This document shows, in pieces, positions 1 to 12,264 of a DNA stretch of 24,169 nucleotides; position 1 is the stretch's first letter, and each line of letters starts with the position of its first letter. Position numbers and translations under genes: made by a program. The notes under the pieces were generated by a model. It saw nothing but the letters and a program-made list of their open reading frames with translations. It did no database searches and was not told the DNA's origin. Source of the DNA: a virus. The stretch is from positions 1 through 24,169 of IMG/VR virus record IMGVR_UViG_3300037584_001452; one strand, 5' to 3'.

Positions 1-3000
1 CCTTCTAACCTTGCTCTAGCATCAGAGTATTTTTTAAAATCTTCTTTACCAGTAACATCTTCTATTTGTTTGTTAAACTCTTTGTTTAATCTAGTTGGTT
101 TATCAGCTATAGCTTGCTGTACATCTGATTTAACATCTATTTGATCTAATACGTTTTTTACTTGTTGAACGTTTAACAATGAGTCATCGGAAAAATAAAA
201 ATCATTATAACCTTCTGTAGCTTTTTCTAAAAACCAATCAGCTTTTGCTTGTGGATCACCGTTGCCTAAGCCAGTTATATTTGATATAGGTATATTTAAA
301 CCAATGTTTTTAAGAAACGTTTGTATTGCTTCTGCGGAAGCACCTGGTCTAGCTGTTACTACAAATATATCTTTTGGTCCAAATTTAGCTTGTTTTTTTC
401 TAGCCTCACTAACCATAGGTCCTTCTAATGTAGATATATCTACGTTTTCAAAATTACTAAAATCAAACTCAGCACCATTAGCAGTTAACTCTTCTGCTTG
501 CACAGCAAATTCACCAGCAGTTAATTCACCGGTTGTACCATCTGGCATTGTGTATTTAACCTTTTCTTTTGTTAGCGCTAGTGTGTCGTCAAAATCAAAA
601 GCACTTAATCCTTTTTCTTTTTTATCTACTTTTTGAGCATCAACTCTAACATCTTGTGAGTTTATTAAAGTTTGTTTTATTTGAGTAGCGTTTTGTTTTT
701 TACTAACAATATCTGCTGCGATTTCTACTGTTTTGTTTCTTGCTTGATCTTCTAGTTTTAATATATCTTGAACAGCTGGTGTTTGCATTAACTTTTCAAA
801 AGACTTTGGACTATCTAAATTAAAATTAGATTTATCACCTGTAACTTTTATATTAGCTGGTACAAAAGCTAGAGTTGGAGTTATATTACCATTTGCATCT
901 GTTCCAGATCTTTTAAATCTAAAAACCATGTCTACAGTGCCTTCAAGTTTAGGAACTGGTAGATTCAATGGATTTTCACCCATATAAAATAAACCTTGAC
1001 CTTGTATGTTTATATAGTATACAGGTGGTTGTTTTTTATTATATAATTCAGATATAACATCAGCACTAACTGTTTCTTTAGTAGTAGTTGCTTTTTGTAA
1101 ACCAGCTTTTTGAGCTTGCATCCAAGCTGTCTTTGGTATTTTTTTAGAACTAGTAGTTAAATCAACTCCTTGTTTTTTAATATCTTTAGCCCAAGCGGTT
1201 AATTTAGGTTTAGATTTTTTAACAATATTATCCATAACTGATTGAAGTTCTGGACTATATTTGTCATATGTAAATTTAAAATTACCTGTGTTAAAATCAT
1301 AAGTACCATTTACACTACTATATTGAGCATTGTCTAGTTTAGACTCACCTAAAAACTCAAAACCATTAAGTTCAAAAGCAAAGTCAAAGTTTCTATACCT
1401 ACCTTTTTCTGAAGGTTTTTTTAATATAACTTTTAAACCAGGAAATTTACTTTCCAACTCTATTGCGTTATTAATAATTAATTGTTCAAAAGCTTTATCT
1501 CTTTTTAAACCATCAGTTTCCATAACTTTTTCAACAAGATACTCAGTGTCTAATGTGTTATTTTCTAGACTTTCTTGTGTTATTTCTTGCTCAAAAGTAT
1601 TTTGTAAACTATCTGCTTCTTTTTTACTTAAACCTAAAGCTTTTCTTATACTATCAATACCAGCTTTTATAGACTTTACAATGTCTTTTGTTTTGCTATA
1701 AGTATCTTTAATTATATTTAAACCACTTTTTATTGCTTTGGCTACTTGATTAACCGGTAAACCAGCGTATAAAGTTCCAGCTTGATCTTCTATAAATGAA
1801 TCTACATTATCTATAGCTTCTTGTAATGTTTGCTCTACAATATCCTCTACAACATCTAGTGAAACATCTTCTTTAACTCTCTGATCAGCATCGGTTTGGA
1901 ATTGATCCATAAATTGGTCAGCGTTTAAATCAGAACCTTTTAACTCTAAAACATCATTAAGCTTATTCATAAAGTCAGCATCAGCTTTCATAGCTTGAAC
2001 TTCTTCTACAACCGCACCTTCAGCTAATATACTAAACAAAGATTGTGATCTTTTTTCATTAGCTTTAAAATAATCTTTTATTTCTTGTAATTTTTCTGGT
2101 GTGGTTTTAGGTATTCTAAAAACTTGTTTTTTAAAGTCGGTACGCTTACCATCTTTAATTTGTTTAGTAGGTGTTCTACCAACTTCTTCAATACCAAATA
2201 ATTTACCAAACCTACCTTTAATAGTAGCTAGCGGTAATGAGTTTATAAAGTCTTGATTAATAACATCGTCTACAAACTGATTATATTGTGGTGAACCAAA
2301 CCTACCTATTGCACCTTTGATTACGTTTCTAATTTCTTTTTGCTGAGTCTTTTTTATAATATCTTTTGCTACTATATCTGGACTAACACCTTTATCATTA
2401 ATTGATCTTATTATTTCATCTTTAACTTTAGCGTTTTGAGTTTCTCTTACTTCAGGTGTAAGTTTTTCTGCAACAACCTCTAGTTGTGATGGATATATTT
2501 TTGCTCTACCAGTTTCTTGAGGTGTAACATCTATATCAATTTCTTCAGCTACAACTTCTCTAGCTTCAGGTCTATCTAAAGTAGTTGCATCTTTTTGACC
2601 AATGTATTTATCATATATACCTTGTGCTTTTGGAGCAATGTTAGCAGTTACAAATGTGGAAAAAGATCCTTTATCTGGTGACCATCTATCCATTATACCC
2701 GAAAACTCTTTATTTATTTCAGCTACAGCATCTTCTCTAGCTATGTCACCTTTACGAGTATCAAACTTAATTGCAGCTAAACCTATTTTATTGTATTGAT
2801 CTAATAAAGCTTCTACATCTACAGCAGAAGGATCTTGCTGATATTGAGTAGCTAATTCATCTGCTTTTGGTGATGATTTTCTAGTTGGTAAAATACTCAT
2901 ACCTACTACATTAGCTCTTTCTGTTTCTACATCAGCTACTAATTCACCCAACCTACTATTTATTTCATTTACTCTATCAATATCCTGCGTTGTTAAAGCA

Positions 3001-4637
3001 GAATCATCAACTTGTTTTATTTTTTGTTGTAATTTATTTTTTTCAATTAACAAAGAAGCGGCTTCAACATTTTCGTTCAAACCTAAAGGTTTTAATTGTT
3101 GAGTAGCTTGAGTTACATCTCTAAAGTTTTCTTGTATACTATTAGCTTGTTCTTGATTTATTTTACCTAATTCTAAATCTTTAGTAACTTGTTGATCTAA
3201 TATTGTTTTAGCTTTTGGTGTTTGTGCTATTTTTAATTCTTCTAAACCACTAACTGGTTTTGATAAATCTACAGGTGTAGAATAAACTTCTGTAATATTA
3301 TTAACGTTAAAATCAGGATTTATTTTTGCAACACTTTTATTTATTTTATTAATAGCCATTGCTTCTTGAATACCGTTTTTAACTTGCATAACATTTATAG
3401 GACCAGCATATGTGGCACCACCACCAACACCTTGTATAAAAGCATCGTTAACTCCTTCAAACGGATCTTTACCGTTTATCATGTTTTGAGTTATTTGTGT
3501 AGCAACTTCCTCTATACCTTCACCTAATGCACCTACAGGAGCTCCTGCTTTTTTAAGAGCTTGTTCATACATTTCAATTAACCCGTTTCTAAATACTTTT
3601 TGTCCTTGCTGTCTACCTTCTTTTAGTAATATATCTTTATATACTTTACCTAAAGTTCCACTACCAATAGCAGAAAAAACTGTTTCAGCACCTGCTAAAC
3701 CTATTGCTTTAGCTGTTAAATCAAACTCACTAGCACCTGGATTTTCTTCTCTTAATCTTCTAAGTTCAGGTCCTAAAAACATAGGAGTTGAACCCGCTGC
3801 TAATTTAGGTATACTTGTAGCTGCTCCACCCATCATCATGCTCATGCTTACAGGCGTGCTTTCAGCTAAACCACTACCTAGCTGTTTAAAACCATCTGAC
3901 CAATTGCCTTTTTTAAAGTTTTCATAAATACCTTGAGTATCATAATTTTCATTATTCCAAATAGATTGTTCTTTACCTAGCTTTTCCGTTTCTTTTTGAT
4001 AAAACTCTAATAAAGGATTTGTTATACCAAACTCTTTTTTAAATTTTTCAGAACTTAATTCGTATTCTTTAGGTAAAATACCAGCGTCTACTAACCAGTT
4101 TTGTGGTGTAGAAAATATATCATAAAAACTTTCACCTAAACCAAACATCATCTCACCTAATGTTGTACTGCCTTTAGCTAAATCTACAGTGGCAAGTTTT
4201 TCTAAATAAGATTTTTTAGCTATTTTATCTTTTTCTATTTGTTCTTTATCTTGTACGCTTCTTAAAGCCGTATTGTGATCCTCAATAGATTTATTTAACT
4301 TAGTTAAAGTATCATTATACATTTTAATTCTATTAGGAGAATCCATAGCATCCATCTCCATATCTCCTCCAGATATTTGAATTAAATCAGTTTCTAGTTT
4401 ATTTATGTTGTTTTGAGAGTTTTTAAAATCAAACTCATCTGTGTTTATTTCAGGTTCTATAGGCTCTGTAGCTGAAGCAATAGTTAAAGGTATAGGTTTT
4501 TCTTCTACAACTTCTTCAACTTCCTCTTCAACCTGTGGTTGAGGATTATTTTTCTTCCATTCCTCTACTTTAGTATATATCTCTTCTTGAGATAAATTCT
4601 GATTCTGTAAAGAAATAACGTATTCTTGTAGAGTCAT
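1..4637 (-). CDS. Giant multidomain virion/polyvalent protein (partial, C-terminus outside window)
   Basis: The frame is open from an ATG at 4637 to the window edge: 1545 complete codons without a stop. The start directly follows the TAA of the upstream gene. Visible parts in order: a Glu-rich N-terminus (about 35-50); a Gly/Ala/Met-rich, possibly membrane-active stretch (about 245-285); a Gly-rich segment (about 375-415); a sigma-70 region-2-like motif, W652-SPDKGSFSTF-662; a Glu/Asp-rich helical region, then a YAGLPVN motif (about 925); a PD-(D/E)XK-like core, D1085 and E1098-S-K1100; and a HAD phosphatase with motif I D1348-F-D-D-T1352, motif II VVTARPG (1426-1432) and acidic motif FSDDS (1482-1486). 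Such giant chains at the end of late operons are known in phages as internal or 'polyvalent' proteins injected with DNA; that role here is inferred. The enzymatic activities are predicted from motifs only. Confidence 0.85.
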   Translation of the reverse strand, partial: MTLQEYVISLQNQNLSQEEIYTKVEEWKKNNPQPQVEEEVEEVVEEKPIPLTIASATEPIEPEINTDEFDFKNSQNNINKLETDLIQISGGDMEMDAMDSPNRIKMYNDTLTKLNKSIEDHNTALRSVQDKEQIEKDKIAKKSYLEKLATVDLAKGSTTLGEMMFGLGESFYDIFSTPQNWLVDAGILPKEYELSSEKFKKEFGITNPLLEFYQKETEKLGKEQSIWNNENYDTQGIYENFKKGNWSDGFKQLGSGLAESTPVSMSMMMGGAATSIPKLAAGSTPMFLGPELRRLREENPGASEFDLTAKAIGLAGAETVFSAIGSGTLGKVYKDILLKEGRQQGQKVFRNGLIEMYEQALKKAGAPVGALGEGIEEVATQITQNMINGKDPFEGVNDAFIQGVGGGATYAGPINVMQVKNGIQEAMAINKINKSVAKINPDFNVNNITEVYSTPVDLSKPVSGLEELKIAQTPKAKTILDQQVTKDLELGKINQEQANSIQENFRDVTQATQQLKPLGLNENVEAASLLIEKNKLQQKIKQVDDSALTTQDIDRVNEINSRLGELVADVETERANVVGMSILPTRKSSPKADELATQYQQDPSAVDVEALLDQYNKIGLAAIKFDTRKGDIAREDAVAEINKEFSGIMDRWSPDKGSFSTFVTANIAPKAQGIYDKYIGQKDATTLDRPEAREVVAEEIDIDVTPQETGRAKIYPSQLEVVAEKLTPEVRETQNAKVKDEIIRSINDKGVSPDIVAKDIIKKTQQKEIRNVIKGAIGRFGSPQYNQFVDDVINQDFINSLPLATIKGRFGKLFGIEEVGRTPTKQIKDGKRTDFKKQVFRIPKTTPEKLQEIKDYFKANEKRSQSLFSILAEGAVVEEVQAMKADADFMNKLNDVLELKGSDLNADQFMDQFQTDADQRVKEDVSLDVVEDIVEQTLQEAIDNVDSFIEDQAGTLYAGLPVNQVAKAIKSGLNIIKDTYSKTKDIVKSIKAGIDSIRKALGLSKKEADSLQNTFEQEITQESLENNTLDTEYLVEKVMETDGLKRDKAFEQLIINNAIELESKFPGLKVILKKPSEKGRYRNFDFAFELNGFEFLGESKLDNAQYSSVNGTYDFNTGNFKFTYDKYSPELQSVMDNIVKKSKPKLTAWAKDIKKQGVDLTTSSKKIPKTAWMQAQKAGLQKATTTKETVSADVISELYNKKQPPVYYINIQGQGLFYMGENPLNLPVPKLEGTVDMVFRFKRSGTDANGNITPTLAFVPANIKVTGDKSNFNLDSPKSFEKLMQTPAVQDILKLEDQARNKTVEIAADIVSKKQNATQIKQTLINSQDVRVDAQKVDKKEKGLSAFDFDDTLALTKEKVKYTMPDGTTGELTAGEFAVQAEELTANGAEFDFSNFENVDISTLEGPMVSEARKKQAKFGPKDIFVVTARPGASAEAIQTFLKNIGLNIPISNITGLGNGDPQAKADWFLEKATEGYNDFYFSDDSLLNVQQVKNVLDQIDVKSDVQQAIADKPTRLNKEFNKQIEDVTGKEDFKKYSDARARLE

Positions 4638-5741
4638 TTAACTTAATTTATTGTCTTGTAAGAACTTATCAGCTTTTGCTTTTTTACCTTCTTCTAAATC
4701 AAATACAGCTGCATCTGCTTGTACTGTTGGTATTTGATTTGTAGTAAATTGTTTTAAATAGTTATTCATAAAATACTCTTTATATTTAACCATAAATAAT
4801 TCTTTTTTATCTTGCATTAATGGCAAGTCTTTTTCATATGACCAAGCTACAAAACCAGCATTAGCGTTTTGAGCCATTTGATCGTCTTCTGATACACTAG
4901 TACCAGCACCAATAAACACATTCCATGCAGCGACTACTGATTGCTCAGAGCTTAGCATACCTGCAACTTCAGCGTTTATAAATGGAGTTACTTTTCTTTC
5001 AATTTTATCTAGATCAAATTTAAGTAAGTTTCTACCTTTACCCATACCTATATCTACAATTTCATAATCATAACTACCATCAGAATTTTTTAATACAAAT
5101 TCATCTGCTATTTTAGCACCTGGCATTAGTTCACCTGTTTCAGGATTACTAGATCCACCAGCCATAACACCAACTTCGCCTAATAATCTTAACATGTCTT
5201 TATTTATGTTAGGAGTTGTAGCTACTATATCTGTCCCTGACTCCATTAGAGCATCTAGAGCGTCACTATTTATTACAAATGGTTCATCTAGCATAGGACC
5301 TTCAAAAATCATCCTCTGTGATCCGTTTTCTAGTAGCTGTAAAGAAGCATTATAACCATCACTTTTAGCAAATGTAGGTTTACCAGTTAGTATTGCGTTA
5401 GCTACAGCGTAAGCATAGTTTTGATTAACATCATAGTACATGTCATTAGTAACTATAAGTTGAGATCCAATATTGGTTAAAAACTCTAATGATTTATTTG
5501 GAGCTTCCATTAAAAATTTTAATCTGTCTGTTTCGTATTTACAACCAGGCTCAATACATTGATTATTGTTTAAAGCTGTTTTTAATTCAGCATATACTTT
5601 ACCTGTATTTTCATAAGCTCTATCTAGTATAGCAAAATTATAATCAGCTGTGCTAGCTATATAAGCAGGGTTATAACCTAAAGCGTTGCTTTGGTTTAGT
5701 TGTTTTATAAACAAATTAATTTTTATATTTTTATCTTCCAT
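4638..5741 (-). CDS. Unknown virion-associated protein (367 aa), probable internal/cargo protein
   Basis: I do not recognise a family. The 367-aa product is acidic and soluble-looking, with no signal peptide or clear membrane segment. It contains one Cys pair near residues 62 and 66 (CIEPGC) and a charged, Lys-rich C-terminal end. The start ATG at 5741 lies 13 bases after the stop of the 219-aa gene, in an A/T-only leader. Its TAA abuts the ATG of the giant gene, so the two are probably translationally coupled. Its position between a likely ejection protein and the giant protein suggests an internal virion or ejected protein. That is inference from context only. The reading frame is certain; the role is not. 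Confidence 0.8.
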   Translation of the reverse strand: MEDKNIKINLFIKQLNQSNALGYNPAYIASTADYNFAILDRAYENTGKVYAELKTALNNNQCIEPGCKYETDRLKFLMEAPNKSLEFLTNIGSQLIVTNDMYYDVNQNYAYAVANAILTGKPTFAKSDGYNASLQLLENGSQRMIFEGPMLDEPFVINSDALDALMESGTDIVATTPNINKDMLRLLGEVGVMAGGSSNPETGELMPGAKIADEFVLKNSDGSYDYEIVDIGMGKGRNLLKFDLDKIERKVTPFINAEVAGMLSSEQSVVAAWNVFIGAGTSVSEDDQMAQNANAGFVAWSYEKDLPLMQDKKELFMVKYKEYFMNNYLKQFTTNQIPTVQADAAVFDLEEGKKAKADKFLQDNKLS

Positions 5742-5754
5742 TGTAATTTATTTA

Positions 5755-6414
5755 TTAATCCCAATCAGCACCACCTAGTATACTAGCCGCGGCACCAATA
5801 CCTCCTGTTAACGCTGCGGTTGAGTCAGCGCTTGCTTGAGCTGCTGCTCCACGTAAAGCACCAATTTGATTAGATAATCTATTAAGTTGTTGCATGTCTC
5901 TAGCTTCTTGAGCATTAAACATATATTGTTCACCTTGAACATCAGCCATTTGTTGTCTTTGAGCTTCTGCCATTCGTTGTCTTTGTAACGTAGCCTCACC
6001 TTGTAGTCTTTGTTTTTCATTAGCAGCTTCTTGCTGTTCTATATTGGCAGCTATACCTTTTTTACTTTGTAACGCAGCCTGTGCTAAAGCTGTAGCACCA
6101 CCAGCGCTACCACCAGTAGCTCTTATAGTATCTAACGTGTTAGCTAAAGCTATATCAGTTTGTTCCATTTGTATTTCAGTCGCTTTTGTAGCTACAGATA
6201 AATTAGCAAAAGGATTTGAAAGCATACTACTTAAATCAGTTATATTAGCATAAGGATCTGTTATCTCTTGTCTATTTTCTTCTAATTGATTTAGTTTATA
6301 TTCTAAACCACGAGCTTGTATCTCTCTATTTCTAGCCGCGCGCTTGGCTCTACTAGAACCGATAATACCACCGACTAAGCTTATTGCTCCACCTATTATT
6401 GCTGCTGCTGGCAT
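5755..6414 (-). CDS. Probable internal virion / DNA-ejection protein (glycine zipper plus coiled coil)
   Basis: The 219-aa product starts with a hydrophobic glycine-zipper helix (residues 4-20, AAAIIGGAISLVGGIIG) followed by a basic stretch (SSRAKRAARNR). A long Gln/Glu/Ala/Arg-rich helical region follows (about 30-185, with a Gly/Ala-rich hinge at 100-110), and the chain ends in a second Gly/Ala-rich hydrophobic tail (about 188-215). This architecture is typical of small podovirus internal proteins that are ejected and insert into membranes, such as T7 gp14-type proteins; no sequence homology is claimed. It lies 18 bases after the 496-aa nozzle gene and before two further probable cargo genes. 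Start chosen: the ATG at 6414, which puts the glycine zipper at the N-terminus. Confidence 0.72.
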   Translation of the reverse strand: MPAAAIIGGAISLVGGIIGSSRAKRAARNREIQARGLEYKLNQLEENRQEITDPYANITDLSSMLSNPFANLSVATKATEIQMEQTDIALANTLDTIRATGGSAGGATALAQAALQSKKGIAANIEQQEAANEKQRLQGEATLQRQRMAEAQRQQMADVQGEQYMFNAQEARDMQQLNRLSNQIGALRGAAAQASADSTAALTGGIGAAASILGGADWD

Positions 6415-6432: not shown

Positions 6433-7923
6433 TTAATATCCATTGTTTGAATCAAATTTTGCTCCTACTGAAAATAATACTTTTGCACCACCAAGGTTTG
6501 TTACATTATCAGTTGAAAAAGTTGCTGTAGTATAATAACCTTTTATACCACTTATTGCGTCTCCAAATATTATTTCACCACTACTTGGAGCTGAGTTATT
6601 TATTACGTTTGCTACGTAGGCATTTTCTTTTCTATTAAACCCAGCATAATATCTTGGTAATGCTGGATCGCTAGTTCCTAAAGTTCCAGCGTAATTTGCT
6701 CTTGTAACAGGAGCACCACCAACTGGATTAAATACATATTCACCACCATAGTAACTTAATATAGATGTTATTGTATCATTATTGTTTTGATAAGTACTAG
6801 TTGAAGGGTTTATATCTTCACCTGTAGCTGTTGAAATTAAAGATCTTACTTCCCAACCATTACTTCCTTCGTAACTTATTGTACTAAAAGTTTTAGACAC
6901 TAGTGGTTCAGGATTAAATATAACTGTTATAGTACTTGCAAATGGAGTTGCTGATCCGTAAAAAACACCTCTTAAAACAGTTGGATCATAATGTTTGTAT
7001 AAACCTGTAGAGTTAGTGCTATAGAAATTATTTTTAATACTCATCATTTGATCTGGTCTATAATCAAATAAACTAGTCCAACCTTGAACACCTTCATCAT
7101 AAGTAACAGTGTTAAAATTTGGAGTAGGTGTATATAAATCACTTTGTTGAGTTGATAAAACGTATTGATCGTTATAAATATCCCAACCACCTATAGCAAA
7201 ACCAGAACTACCACCTAAATCTAAATTGTTTAATTCATCTCTAAAGAAGTCTCTCATACCTAATTGCGATATTTCAATTATACTACTACCTCTTAAAGAT
7301 AAAACTACGTTATTATTTTTATCTGTAAAATATTTATTATTACCGTATACGGCAAAGCTTTCTGGATTTTTACTAATACCATATTTACCCGGTATTGGTT
7401 GTATAACACCTATAACTAAATTAGTAGAAGTAACAGCTGGATTACCCTCAGCTGTAAAAATAGCATCTTTATCTATCAATGCTCTATTAACTTTAGTTTC
7501 TTGAAACACAAATAGATTTGTGTCTTCTGCGTATAATTTTTGTATTGAACCGTTTGCTGGGTCTGCTGCTTTTTCAATATCATCAGCGGTTGAAAACACG
7601 TTTGTGTTATTTATTCCTGTTCTAGAGTTGTATACGCCAGAATATATTAATGCGTTAAATCTTCTATAACCAGCAGGTTCTGCTTCTACTAAATAAGCTT
7701 TTGCTCCATAATCTACAGATGTATTATTAAAACCACCTCTAATTCTAGATTCTTCTAAGACATAATCATCTTCATCTGGACTACCAATAACTGTATTAGG
7801 ATATGATCCATTTAAAGAAGATGGTATTCCAAAAGAACCATTCCATATAGGATCGTCGCTTCCATCACTTACCTTCTTTAATATAAAAGAGTTAAAATAT
7901 TTTATTTCAATAGTTGCGCCCAT
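6433..7923 (-). CDS. Tail nozzle/muzzle C-terminal-type protein (496 aa)
   Basis: A beta-rich 496-aa protein with many Asn, Gly, Ser and Thr residues. The segment at 120-230 (KLYAEDTNLFVFQETKVNRA, GKYGISKNPESFAVYG, YFTDKNNNVVLSL, GMRDFFRD) reads like propeller blades of phage tail-nozzle proteins. The segment at 280-360 (GWTSLFDYRPDQM, LYKHYDP, FSTISYEGSNGWE) resembles the distal part of crAss-like and P22 gp10-like muzzle proteins; this is recognition from memory, not a search. It begins 18 bases after the 1440-aa gene. The ATG at 7923 is the first Met after the preceding stop and precedes all the conserved blades. I infer that the two proteins together form the tail nozzle, as one split chain or two partners. 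Confidence 0.7.
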   Translation of the reverse strand: MGATIEIKYFNSFILKKVSDGSDDPIWNGSFGIPSSLNGSYPNTVIGSPDEDDYVLEESRIRGGFNNTSVDYGAKAYLVEAEPAGYRRFNALIYSGVYNSRTGINNTNVFSTADDIEKAADPANGSIQKLYAEDTNLFVFQETKVNRALIDKDAIFTAEGNPAVTSTNLVIGVIQPIPGKYGISKNPESFAVYGNNKYFTDKNNNVVLSLRGSSIIEISQLGMRDFFRDELNNLDLGGSSGFAIGGWDIYNDQYVLSTQQSDLYTPTPNFNTVTYDEGVQGWTSLFDYRPDQMMSIKNNFYSTNSTGLYKHYDPTVLRGVFYGSATPFASTITVIFNPEPLVSKTFSTISYEGSNGWEVRSLISTATGEDINPSTSTYQNNNDTITSILSYYGGEYVFNPVGGAPVTRANYAGTLGTSDPALPRYYAGFNRKENAYVANVINNSAPSSGEIIFGDAISGIKGYYTTATFSTDNVTNLGGAKVLFSVGAKFDSNNGY

Positions 7924-7941
7924 ATTTTATGATTACATGTT

Positions 7942-10900
7942 TTATATTATTTCTACTGCATAAGCAGATATGTCTTCAGCTACAAACGTTCCAAGACCAC
8001 TATCAGCTCCACAATCATTACCTGAAAAAGGAGTTTGTGCTAAATATAAAGCTTCAGCTGCAGCAAAACTAGCTGCTGAAAAATACAAGGCGTTACCTTG
8101 TCCACCACCACTAGCTGGATTAGCATTAGTTTTATCTATAGTTATAGTTGTAGTACCATTAGATAATTGTTGAGTTGCATCATCTGGGTTTGTACACGGT
8201 ATTGCTCCGTAATAATAATATCCGTTTTCAGCTGTTATTGGAGATGCTGATATTTGAAACCTGACAACAGATTGCTCATTACAGTTATCTGGACTATCAC
8301 AAAAATATGTTGTTTTTTCGTAATTTGAAACATTGCTAGCTCTGTTTAAATTAACTTCATAAACTGAATTTATAGATTCACCAGCGTCTGCAAATTGCAA
8401 TGTTATATCGTAATCAGCTACGTCAATTGTAGGGCTTGCTATAAACAGTTTTGTTTGTATTTGATTAGCAACAACATTATTTGTTATAGTAAAATAATCG
8501 CTTAGTAATTCACCTTCTTCCAAAGCGCTACTATTTTTAGTTATATTTGTTATTGCAACATTATAATCTAATGTTCTTAGAGCTATATTGTTAGCTCCGT
8601 TGTGAGAATTAATAGTTGTTAAAGCGGTTGTAATCGTTCTATTTGTTGTCACAGGATTAGTACCTGCAGATGTTATCACAGGTTGAACATTACCTGGACC
8701 CACCGCATTGTTAGTTGCAGAAACAAAAACTTCAGATGTAACACCGTTATAAGTTGTTACAATTTTAAAAATAAAATTAAACAACCTAGCATTTTCATCA
8801 TTGCTAAAATAAACGTCTGAGTAATAATCAGCAGTTGTTGCTACCATAAAAGTAACAACAGTTGAACCTGGTGTTCCTGTTCTAGTTAACGTGAAATAAT
8901 CACTTACATCATTTCCAGGGTTATTATTATCTGTAACGCTGTCTATAGTTACATCTAACTGTGTTAAATTAATATCTACTGGATCACTTATATCTACACC
9001 AAATTGATCAACTACTTTAAAAGCATTAGCTAAAATATTACTTGTTGTTGCTAAACCTTCTGTCCAACCAGCTGTGTCAAAAGAATCTATACCCGCGCCA
9101 CCAGAACTCTCAGATAATATTAAAGAATTTAAATCTGATATTAAACCACTAGTTGTAGTTTCCCAATATATATCTAAACTAGATACTGTAGGAGTTGTTT
9201 CGTATACACTTAAATATTGTAAGCCAGGAACAGATAAATTACCTTGATTACTCGCCGCGTAACCAGGCGCAAAAGTTAATATATCGTCAGCTGATAAAGT
9301 AACAGCTTCTGATAATATTAAGGTAGGTGAACCAGCAGCATTAGCTATGTATATACCTTCTTTTAAACCAGGACCAGAAACAATCATATCGTTAGCAGGT
9401 GTGCCTTCAAGATTTTTTAAAGTAACACTAGTGTTATTATTAACCGGTGTGTTAACTAATCCACTAGCTACAGCATAGTTTGTAGAAGCTATTTGTCCTA
9501 TTTGATTTTCTGTACTTATTCTTGATATTAAAGGATTAGATTCATCTAAATAAAACTGTGGAAAATAATTTGGTCTTGGTGGATCAGTAGGATCATAATC
9601 AAACAAATCAGACATAGTAGATATTGTTGAAACTGTATCTGCTGTTCTACCTGGGTTGTATTGAGTATTTGCTTTACCTATATTAGTTGCAAATATAAAA
9701 CCAGCTGTACTAGTGTCATAAGTTATACTTGTAGCAGTGTTTTGAACTCTACCAAATAATCTAACTGAACTTCTATATTGTTTTTGATCGGGACCAACTT
9801 CAGTTAAATCTCTAGGTACTTTATTTATATTATCATTAATTAACACAGCGTGTGAAGTACTTGTTACTTCTTTTGTAAGATCTTCTGGGTAAGCCGCCAT
9901 TATACCAGGTAAATAAACATTGTAATATTCTTGCTCTGTTTGTTTAACTACTATTTTATATGAATACCAACCTAATGGATTATAATCAACACTACTAGTG
10001 TCATCATTATATAAACCTGGTGAATTAGCGTAACCACCACTTATAGGATTGTTAAATCTAATTTTTAAAGAATCACCTGGAAAACTTTCTTGAGTTGCAC
10101 TATCTTCTAAATACGCGGAATAAACTGTATCTCCAATAAAAGTTGAAGAACCAACAGTAACAGATTCTTTGTTGTTTGAAAGTATAACAGAAGACTGTCT
10201 ACCATATCTATCAGATAAAACAACACCTACTTGGTAATTTCTATTTTGTTTTAAAGAAGAGTTAGGGTATTCTACTTTACTAGTATTATCAGTTTCTGTT
10301 CCGGTGTCTTGGAAAACTAAAGCTTGACCAGCTACTAAAGTTACATTTTTATCTAATTTAATATTAGGTGTAGAATAACTAGTTACTTGACCTAAAGGAA
10401 AACCATTATAATCACCTGGGCTTGTAGTTGATGATGTCTTCCAGCCATACATTACATCTCCAACGCTAGGTGTTTCAGTACCAACTAATGTTACTGGAAT
10501 GTTTGTGCCGGCAGAATAAAAAGCACTAGCTGTAGACGTTGCTTTTGCGTTTATTACTTGAAAATTATTTTTGTCACTAGCCTGTACATTGTAATCTAAA
10601 GAACTTGGAGGTGTATGCTTGTTTTCAAAGTTAGCATATATAACTCTATTTCCAGATATTTCTTGAGCAAATGCTTTGACAGGTATTTTATCAAAAACTC
10701 TTAACAACTCACTGTCTGGTAATGTTCTAAATGGTTTTATAGAATTGTATTTATACTCATAAACTGATGGATTACCTATATAGACATATTGAGTAAATGC
10801 AGCAGGTGGAGAAGCTTGGTTTTTACTACAAGTTAAAACCCCAGTAGCAGCATTATAACTATTAACAAAAGAAAAATTAGCAACACCTGGTCCACTTATT

Positions 10901-12264
10901 AATTCACCTGTTTTAACTGTTCCTACTACGTTTATTAGGTTTAGTTTATCAGGTGCCGTAACTGGAGGGTTTCCTAACTGAGCTCTTGCAGATGAATTAA
11001 CTATATCTTCTATAGGTATTGTATCAATAACTCTAACAGCTATACCGTCTGATTCTTTATACAATATATCTATTTCTTTAATTTTTAATTTATCTTGTAA
11101 ACTAAATTTATTAAAAGGTAAAGGAATTATAAGTTTTATTTCATCAACTTTATTTTCTACAAATTCTACTATAGTAGATCTATAAGCAGCTGCTTGATCG
11201 TCTTTATCTATAGCAGGAGTTTCTTGTCTTACATACATGAAATAACCATCTTGCTTTGGTATAAAAGCAACTTGAGTAAACGGAGCCATTATAGAGTATT
11301 CATTATCATCAAATCTCCATCTATAACTAAATCTTACGAATTTATCTTCTAAATAAGCTGGATCACCTGCAAATAAACCATCATAATAAGGGTTAGCGTC
11401 TATTACTATTTCTGCACCAGCTGGAGTAGCAGGAGCACCTACACATGTTATTACACCTGTGCTAGAATTGTAAGAACTAACTGTCGCTGGTGTGTTAACA
11501 ATATTGGTTGTACTAGTTGCTATATAACTAATACTTTGCCCAGCAACAGGATTAACACCTTTAGCTGTAGAAGGTGTAACTGTTATGCTTGATCCAACAG
11601 AAGCACCCGGGGCTGTAGCTGTAAAACCAATAGGAGTAGTTTTACTAGTTACATCTTTCATTGTACTTTCGTACTTATCTGTACTTATTGCTGTAAAAGC
11701 ATTTTCATCTCTTTGTTGCCAAAGCTGTATAGCTTGGTAAGGATTATATTTTGCTACAGATATTTGATCTTCCGTAGTATAATATCTAGTATTATTTACA
11801 GCTCTTTCAATATTTATTTTTCTAGGTTGATTGCGATTATCTGTCCAAAACAATAAATTCTCTACTAAATTAACACCATATATAGGATATAATTGTGAAA
11901 AATTTAAAAAAGTATTAGAAAGAATTAAATCAACAAAAGTGTCTGTTAAAACATTATACTGATATATATGGTGATTAGAACCAATACCAGTTGGAACATA
12001 ATCTTCTGTTTTATTATCTGTTACAAATAAATAAATAAAATTATTAGCATCATCAGTAACCCAACCAATACACTTACTATTTGCTGGAAAAGTTAAACCT
12101 GTTATTTTATTACCTAAAACGTTTTCTAGTTCACCTACATCTGGACCTTCAGATTTACTAACCTGAACATTTCTTGCATCTCTATATTCTCCGTTTGGTA
12201 CTAAACGAGCATCTAGGTCTTTGTTTAATTTACCTTTAACAAAGGTGTTAACAACTTTTGCCAT
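7942..12264 (-). CDS. Large tail nozzle/muzzle protein with inserted beta domains (1440 aa)
   Basis: Residues 8-52 (FVKGKLNKDLDARLVPNGEY, then RDARNVQVS, GPDVGELENVLGN) match the signature at the head of many phage nozzle proteins ('lvpnGeyrdarNv'), which start a beta-propeller. Further blade-like strands run to about 200 (IYLFVTDN, LLFWTDNRNQPRKI). The body is interrupted by four similar small beta modules at about 216-291, 441-500, 578-652 and 935-1000. A C-terminal part (about 1095-1310) holds two diverged Ig/cadherin-like repeats, each with a SDYFT strand (1121-1125 and 1255-1259). The extreme C-terminus is Cys-containing (1322, 1328, 1357, 1418). It lies 6 bases downstream of the 410-aa connector gene. 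I infer that it forms the distal tail tube and carries surface-exposed adhesion domains. Confidence 0.78.
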   Translation of the reverse strand: MAKVVNTFVKGKLNKDLDARLVPNGEYRDARNVQVSKSEGPDVGELENVLGNKITGLTFPANSKCIGWVTDDANNFIYLFVTDNKTEDYVPTGIGSNHHIYQYNVLTDTFVDLILSNTFLNFSQLYPIYGVNLVENLLFWTDNRNQPRKINIERAVNNTRYYTTEDQISVAKYNPYQAIQLWQQRDENAFTAISTDKYESTMKDVTSKTTPIGFTATAPGASVGSSITVTPSTAKGVNPVAGQSISYIATSTTNIVNTPATVSSYNSSTGVITCVGAPATPAGAEIVIDANPYYDGLFAGDPAYLEDKFVRFSYRWRFDDNEYSIMAPFTQVAFIPKQDGYFMYVRQETPAIDKDDQAAAYRSTIVEFVENKVDEIKLIIPLPFNKFSLQDKLKIKEIDILYKESDGIAVRVIDTIPIEDIVNSSARAQLGNPPVTAPDKLNLINVVGTVKTGELISGPGVANFSFVNSYNAATGVLTCSKNQASPPAAFTQYVYIGNPSVYEYKYNSIKPFRTLPDSELLRVFDKIPVKAFAQEISGNRVIYANFENKHTPPSSLDYNVQASDKNNFQVINAKATSTASAFYSAGTNIPVTLVGTETPSVGDVMYGWKTSSTTSPGDYNGFPLGQVTSYSTPNIKLDKNVTLVAGQALVFQDTGTETDNTSKVEYPNSSLKQNRNYQVGVVLSDRYGRQSSVILSNNKESVTVGSSTFIGDTVYSAYLEDSATQESFPGDSLKIRFNNPISGGYANSPGLYNDDTSSVDYNPLGWYSYKIVVKQTEQEYYNVYLPGIMAAYPEDLTKEVTSTSHAVLINDNINKVPRDLTEVGPDQKQYRSSVRLFGRVQNTATSITYDTSTAGFIFATNIGKANTQYNPGRTADTVSTISTMSDLFDYDPTDPPRPNYFPQFYLDESNPLISRISTENQIGQIASTNYAVASGLVNTPVNNNTSVTLKNLEGTPANDMIVSGPGLKEGIYIANAAGSPTLILSEAVTLSADDILTFAPGYAASNQGNLSVPGLQYLSVYETTPTVSSLDIYWETTTSGLISDLNSLILSESSGGAGIDSFDTAGWTEGLATTSNILANAFKVVDQFGVDISDPVDINLTQLDVTIDSVTDNNNPGNDVSDYFTLTRTGTPGSTVVTFMVATTADYYSDVYFSNDENARLFNFIFKIVTTYNGVTSEVFVSATNNAVGPGNVQPVITSAGTNPVTTNRTITTALTTINSHNGANNIALRTLDYNVAITNITKNSSALEEGELLSDYFTITNNVVANQIQTKLFIASPTIDVADYDITLQFADAGESINSVYEVNLNRASNVSNYEKTTYFCDSPDNCNEQSVVRFQISASPITAENGYYYYGAIPCTNPDDATQQLSNGTTTITIDKTNANPASGGGQGNALYFSAASFAAAEALYLAQTPFSGNDCGADSGLGTFVAEDISAYAVEII
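9265..11619 (-). repeat. Four diverged small beta-module insertions within the nozzle gene
   Basis: Protein-level repeats, not DNA repeats. Copies lie at residues about 216-291 (11619-11394), 441-500 (10944-10765), 578-652 (10533-10309) and 935-1000 (9462-9265). Each contains most of the pattern: short strand, 'xxG(D/E)xxxGPGv' or equivalent turn, strand ending 'SYN..TGv/ tLxLs', then 'aGa/oxlxF'. Examples are GELISGPGV, SVGDVMYGW, NDMIVSGPGL and SYNSSTGVITC. Similar short beta modules are common inserts in marine phage structural proteins. Exact boundaries are approximate. Confidence 0.5.

Follow-up and report, generated by a model that had tools for sequence, protein, structure and literature searches.

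A giant multi-module protein and probable virion component from a marine flavobacteriophage-like podovirus with a crAss-type tail

Polyvalent proteins, described in 2017 by Iyer et al. (PMC5512222), are phage polypeptides in which many enzyme-like domains of different kinds are joined and which are predicted to be co-injected with the DNA; processing by zincins is a stated theme of that work. The giant protein described here is encoded in a 24,169-nucleotide stretch of viral DNA (IMG/VR record IMGVR_UViG_3300037584_001452, positions 1 to 24,169; hereafter the window). It resembles polyvalent proteins in combining at least two unlike domains in one phage polypeptide, two of its three domains being assigned by motif or weak fold, and a zincin-type module occurs in most of its relatives (55/74), with none in the window. 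It differs from them in that it matches no catalogued domain by Pfam at threshold, and neither sigma nor HAD-family domains were found in the main text of PMC5512222. A literature search for a crAss-like giant protein with sigma, nuclease and HAD modules gave nothing specific. The initial annotation had suggested that the combination and order of the modules may be undescribed; the absence of a match in Pfam, NCBIfam, tblastn or the main text of PMC5512222 agrees with this, but proteins of the polyvalent kind have been known since 2017. What appears to be new is the set and order of modules, the exchange of a central slot and, in some relatives, a kinase placed within the HAD domain.

A counterpart by position is gp47 of crAss001 (262.5 kDa), a virion cargo protein identified by MS (PMC10172136). 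Both proteins follow a muzzle and two cargo proteins and are of similar size (2341 aa for gp47), but gp47 has no detectable homology to the giant protein and all module profiles were negative against it. The N-terminal domain looked like crAss001 gp47 and phi14:2 gp078 by eye, which neither profile comparison nor hhalign supported. By eye, gp47 (L090:21120-28145) also seems to contain a PD-(D/E)xK-like stretch and an HEAFH motif.

The giant gene is an ATG-initiated frame of 1545 codons on the minus strand (3..4637) with no stop up to the contig end; the window thus holds aa 1-1545 of about 2258. The long open frame first noted from the DNA was borne out, and the C-terminus sought by extension was supplied by L001, a record 97% identical to the window, in which the frame continues to a stop at 2258 aa. 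Codon differences between the two records are mostly synonymous (142 of 186, vs 44 non-synonymous), which identifies the frame as a gene under purifying selection. For the nuclease and HAD regions, with ratios of 22 synonymous to 2 non-synonymous and 27 to 1 respectively, the same comparison points to strong purifying selection. At threshold, the window protein matched no family in Pfam or NCBIfam, and tblastn against 50,697 phage records returned no match. The places first proposed for the three modules (residues 550-720, 1040-1130 and 1320-1520) agree with those found here (aa 607-715, 1030-1279 and 1346-1510). The N-terminal part had also been called hydrophobic; it is only mildly so (best 19-residue mean 1.19), and the peak of the full-length protein lies in the C-terminus beyond the window (1.58 at aa 2050).

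Scanning viral contigs for the HAD and C-terminal regions yielded 497 relatives from uncultured viral loci, the best 80 of which were kept for comparison; module counts refer to 74 sequences, namely 73 full-length relatives and the window fragment. The HAD motifs DxDxT, (T)AR and DD are present in 74/74, a count to be read knowing that the search patterns were taken from the HAD motifs and so selected for them, whereas the linked C-terminal region of 700 aa was not selected for and is present in 73/73 full-length relatives. By profile, the sigma-like module was found in 51/74, the zincin (motif HExLH...E) in 55/74, a central module termed Q_A in 51/74 and the nuclease of the window in 8/74. 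No zincin was found in the window's clade, HExxH being absent from P0001 and from the full-length relative. The content of the central slot varies even within the close clade: L012, L013 and the window share one nuclease type, L015, L016 and L018 have a diverged nuclease that is about 28% identical, and L014 has other content in common with L029 and L033. The HAD and C-terminal regions are kept while the central modules are swapped between lineages. The zincin alignment gave no useful match to PDB profiles. Q_A (for example aa 1396-1816 of P0005, from L005) has an invariant E-H, Q and R in 51/51 copies and looks like an enzyme. In L034 and L062 the giant gene seems to be shortened or split (ORFs of 912 and 1440 aa). 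Relatives L112-L118 lie in MAGs named Aliivibrio, Woesearchaeota, Ilumatobacteraceae and others, and are probably phage contigs binned into those MAGs.

All neighbouring genes described here are on the minus strand. Directly upstream of the giant gene lies an ORF for a 367-aa protein (4638..5741), and an ORF of 348-701 aa adjoins the giant gene in 75/75 loci examined; no known relative of the 367-aa protein was found. Across the 75 loci the distance between the upstream stop and the giant start is -7 to +31 bp. The next gene (5755..6414) encodes a 219-aa internal virion protein, a homologue of Cellulophaga phi40:1 gp099 (hhalign 96.6%, E 5e-10), which is structural by MS/MS according to its record annotation. 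The giant gene does follow two small genes, whose products had earlier been proposed to be internal virion proteins: the 219-aa product has a virion homologue, and the 367-aa product has no known relative. Farther upstream are the C-terminal part of the muzzle protein (crAss_MUZ_C; 6433..7923), its N-terminal part (7942..12264) and more genes for head and tail proteins. The two muzzle ORFs of the window match different parts of a single chain of crAss001 and phi14:2, and the muzzle ORF layout of G011 and G012 looks like this two-ORF arrangement.

The closest MCP and terminase are those of the uncultured phage MW202828 (47% and 62% identity), other near relatives being found in Maribacter phage Panino, Flavobacterium Elemovirus and Cellulophaga phi38:1-type phages. 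Judged by these relatives, the virus is a flavobacteriophage-like marine podovirus whose tail parts are of crAss type, and not a close crAssphage. The related 65.6-kb record G012 has direct terminal repeats and is therefore probably complete. A search with the crAss-type RNA polymerase of phi14:2, run without a positive control, found no match in 12 related records including G012; the result for G012 makes the host RNA polymerase a likely target.

Part of the case for virion delivery comes from the conserved N-terminal domain (aa 151-440; 3318..4187, minus strand). A profile of this domain built from the window's family matched giant terminal structural proteins of cultured phages, namely Panino CDS0069 (109 bits), phi38:1/phi40:1 gp101 (69 bits for phi38:1), Elemovirus elemoF gp18 (58 bits) and Cellulophaga phi13:2 gp127 (29 bits); reversed controls gave nothing comparable. 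These proteins share the operon position of the window protein, after the muzzle and internal proteins, as well as its N-terminal domain, which places it in the phi38:1/Elemovirus/Panino group of giant terminal virion proteins. In phi40:1, gp097-gp101, that is the giant and its four upstream neighbours, are annotated as structural by experimental MS/MS, and the gp101 gene is 99.7% identical in DNA to its phi38:1 counterpart. On these two grounds, homology and the structural status of the phi40:1 copy, packaging of the window protein in the virion and its delivery are probable. Delivery is also favoured by the place of its gene right behind those of the muzzle and internal proteins, with the giant start close to the upstream stop, and by the virion cargo protein gp47 at the corresponding place in crAss001. 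The cultured giants differ in that searches detected neither the sigma, nuclease and HAD modules nor the C-terminal region, so that the virion evidence is confined to the N-terminal domain; elemoF gp18 does contain the zincin, as do most family members. A proposed likeness between the C-terminal region and the Panino C-terminus was unsupported on comparison. The N-terminus of the Panino giant (L008:14899-20388) belongs to the family of the window protein; its label, tRNA methyltransferase, receives no support from Pfam. This label and that of the MW202828 giant (L124:741-12320, reticulocyte binding/rhoptry protein) look wrong. A conserved linker with the motif LLIEKNKLQQKI follows the N-terminal domain (aa 469-577; 2907..3233, minus strand) and is present in 35/74 sequences.

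The region aa 607-715 (2493..2819, minus strand) weakly resembles region 2 of sigma-70; the profile and the predicted fold are each weak and agree on both family and region. When a 33-row profile of the module was compared with the PDB, the three best matches were RNA polymerase sigma factors (weak E-values of 0.047-0.10), and the alignment covers region 2 including the FDP-KG-FSTY stretch. Pfam Sigma70_r2 was matched by one relative alone (E 0.0025). In the AlphaFold model (mean pLDDT 70) the sigma part reaches 45-60; VIA-align placed sigma-factor chains at ranks 1-21, many over 64 residues at 2.7-2.8 Å with Z about 5, which is weak for a small helical bundle. The module appears to share the three-helix arrangement and the FDP-KG-(F/W)STY signature with sigma-70 region 2 but lacks the WW pair of region 2.3. 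It is followed by a conserved helical module (aa 726-951; 1785..2462, minus strand; pLDDT mostly above 80) for which neither profile nor structure comparison found a known relative. Sigma region 4 was not found, the helical module gave no sigma match, and an alignment of the sigma and post-sigma parts together gave no useful match to PDB profiles.

The module at aa 1030-1279 (801..1550, minus strand) is PD-(D/E)xK-like by motif. E1051, D1085 and E1098-x-K1100, corresponding to the catalytic E, D and ExK, are invariant in eight rows from two diverged subclades, phrog_26930 matches the module (E 7e-9), and the model places the catalytic residues in a helix followed by three strands, in the order expected from the alpha-beta-beta-beta-alpha-beta core of PD-(D/E)xK nucleases. 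Foldseek and VIA-align with this model found no nuclease above background, the matches being limited to low-scoring PAS-like entries and a single CARF nuclease (Can2, Z 3.6). The nuclease alignment gave no useful match to PDB profiles, and a search for further copies gave only seven loci, all of the same clade.

The HAD phosphatase-like domain (aa 1346-1510; 108..602, minus strand) carries FDFDDT (1347-1352), TAR (1428-1430), K1465 and DD (1484-1485); the lysine is the same in every aligned sequence, which completes motifs I to IV. Pfam HAD PF12710 matched weakly in 6/33 members (best 0.0033), and a 462-kb phage has a match to the domain in the form of a separate gene (26% identity, E 2e-4). 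The HAD alignment gave no useful match to PDB profiles. In seven of the 74 sequences (L052, L054, L063, L065, L074, L076 and L078) a P-loop kinase is inserted in the HAD domain after motif I; in L052, whose giant ORF carries it at about aa 1490-1700, Pfam reports AAA_33 (E 2.7e-16) and Zeta_toxin (6.3e-12). It may be of the PNK or of the zeta-toxin type. These seven relatives resemble polynucleotide kinase-phosphatases of the T4 Pnk type in having a HAD phosphatase and a P-loop kinase in one chain, but differ in that the kinase sits within the HAD domain and is nearest to AAA_33/Zeta toxin by Pfam; the window protein has no kinase. The pairing suggests processing of polynucleotide ends and, since the kinase is inserted in the same HAD domain, the probable substrates of the phosphatase itself are nucleotides or the ends of nucleic acids.

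We favour, with some reservation, a model in which the window protein is an ejected giant polyvalent protein that combines a delivery scaffold with entry-phase effectors and is encoded by a marine, flavobacteriophage-like podovirus whose tail is of crAss type. As the last protein of the virion/ejection operon it would leave the virion with or ahead of the DNA, and the 219-aa internal protein would go with it. The delivery scaffold is inferred to consist of the N-terminal domain and the conserved C-terminal region; the sigma region-2-like module would probably dock on host RNA polymerase and redirect or block it. The PD-(D/E)xK-like nuclease would be a second effector of the entry phase and the HAD phosphatase a third, probably acting on nucleotides or nucleic-acid ends. 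If the effectors are in conflict with differing hosts, the exchange of the middle slot between lineages would be expected. The multi-effector chain delivered with the DNA, as first envisaged, is upheld as regards the several enzyme-like modules at the end of a virion operon and a delivery indicated by N-terminal homology, but the activities are assigned by motif only. We infer both the delivery of the window protein and every module activity.

Several other readings were weighed. The giant could be a precursor that is cleaved into separate proteins, either as the virion is assembled or once the chain has entered the cell; the zincin would do this in most relatives, and a different protease in the window's clade. 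The HExLH...E motif in 55/74 sequences and the zincin theme of polyvalent proteins fit such a scheme, which we regard as possible if somewhat doubtful given that the window's own clade lacks the zincin. That the sigma likeness is a chance similarity between three-helix bundles, the module serving to link or oligomerize, for example, seems rather unlikely: the E-values, pLDDT and Z are all low, but profile and structure comparison both choose region 2 of the same family, as does the single Pfam match. A protein with a mainly structural role in ejection, a channel or scaffold like T7 gp16 with inactive relics or binding domains in its middle, would account for the wide sharing of the N- and C-terminal regions and for cultured relatives that retain the giant gene with HAD, sigma and nuclease undetected. 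It is unlikely in view of the invariant catalytic residues (HAD in 74/74; E, D and ExK in every nuclease copy) and of the strong purifying selection on both regions. Finally, because the virion evidence comes from other branches, such as phi40:1, the protein might be a late cytoplasmic one that merely stands at the operon end; the N-terminus and position that it shares with phi40:1 gp101, a virion protein by MS/MS annotation, make this very improbable.

The ejected multi-effector protein can be given a more specific form, in which one virion-delivered chain captures host RNA polymerase through its sigma region-2 mimic and also cuts and heals nucleic acids by means of its nuclease and HAD phosphatase, joined in some relatives by the embedded kinase, in phages that perhaps lack their own virion RNA polymerase. 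This version is speculative, and we think it unlikely to hold in full.

Little is known of how podovirus-like phages seize control of a cell within the first minute, and functions have yet to be assigned to most of the proteins that are ejected along with the DNA. The family described here pairs a conserved chain for delivery with a slot for interchangeable effectors, is represented by hundreds of natural variants, and its cultured relatives (Cellulophaga phi38:1/phi40:1, Elemovirus and Panino) make delivery testable. If the model is true, ejecting a protein that carries a sigma-2-like module would let the phage take over host transcription directly.
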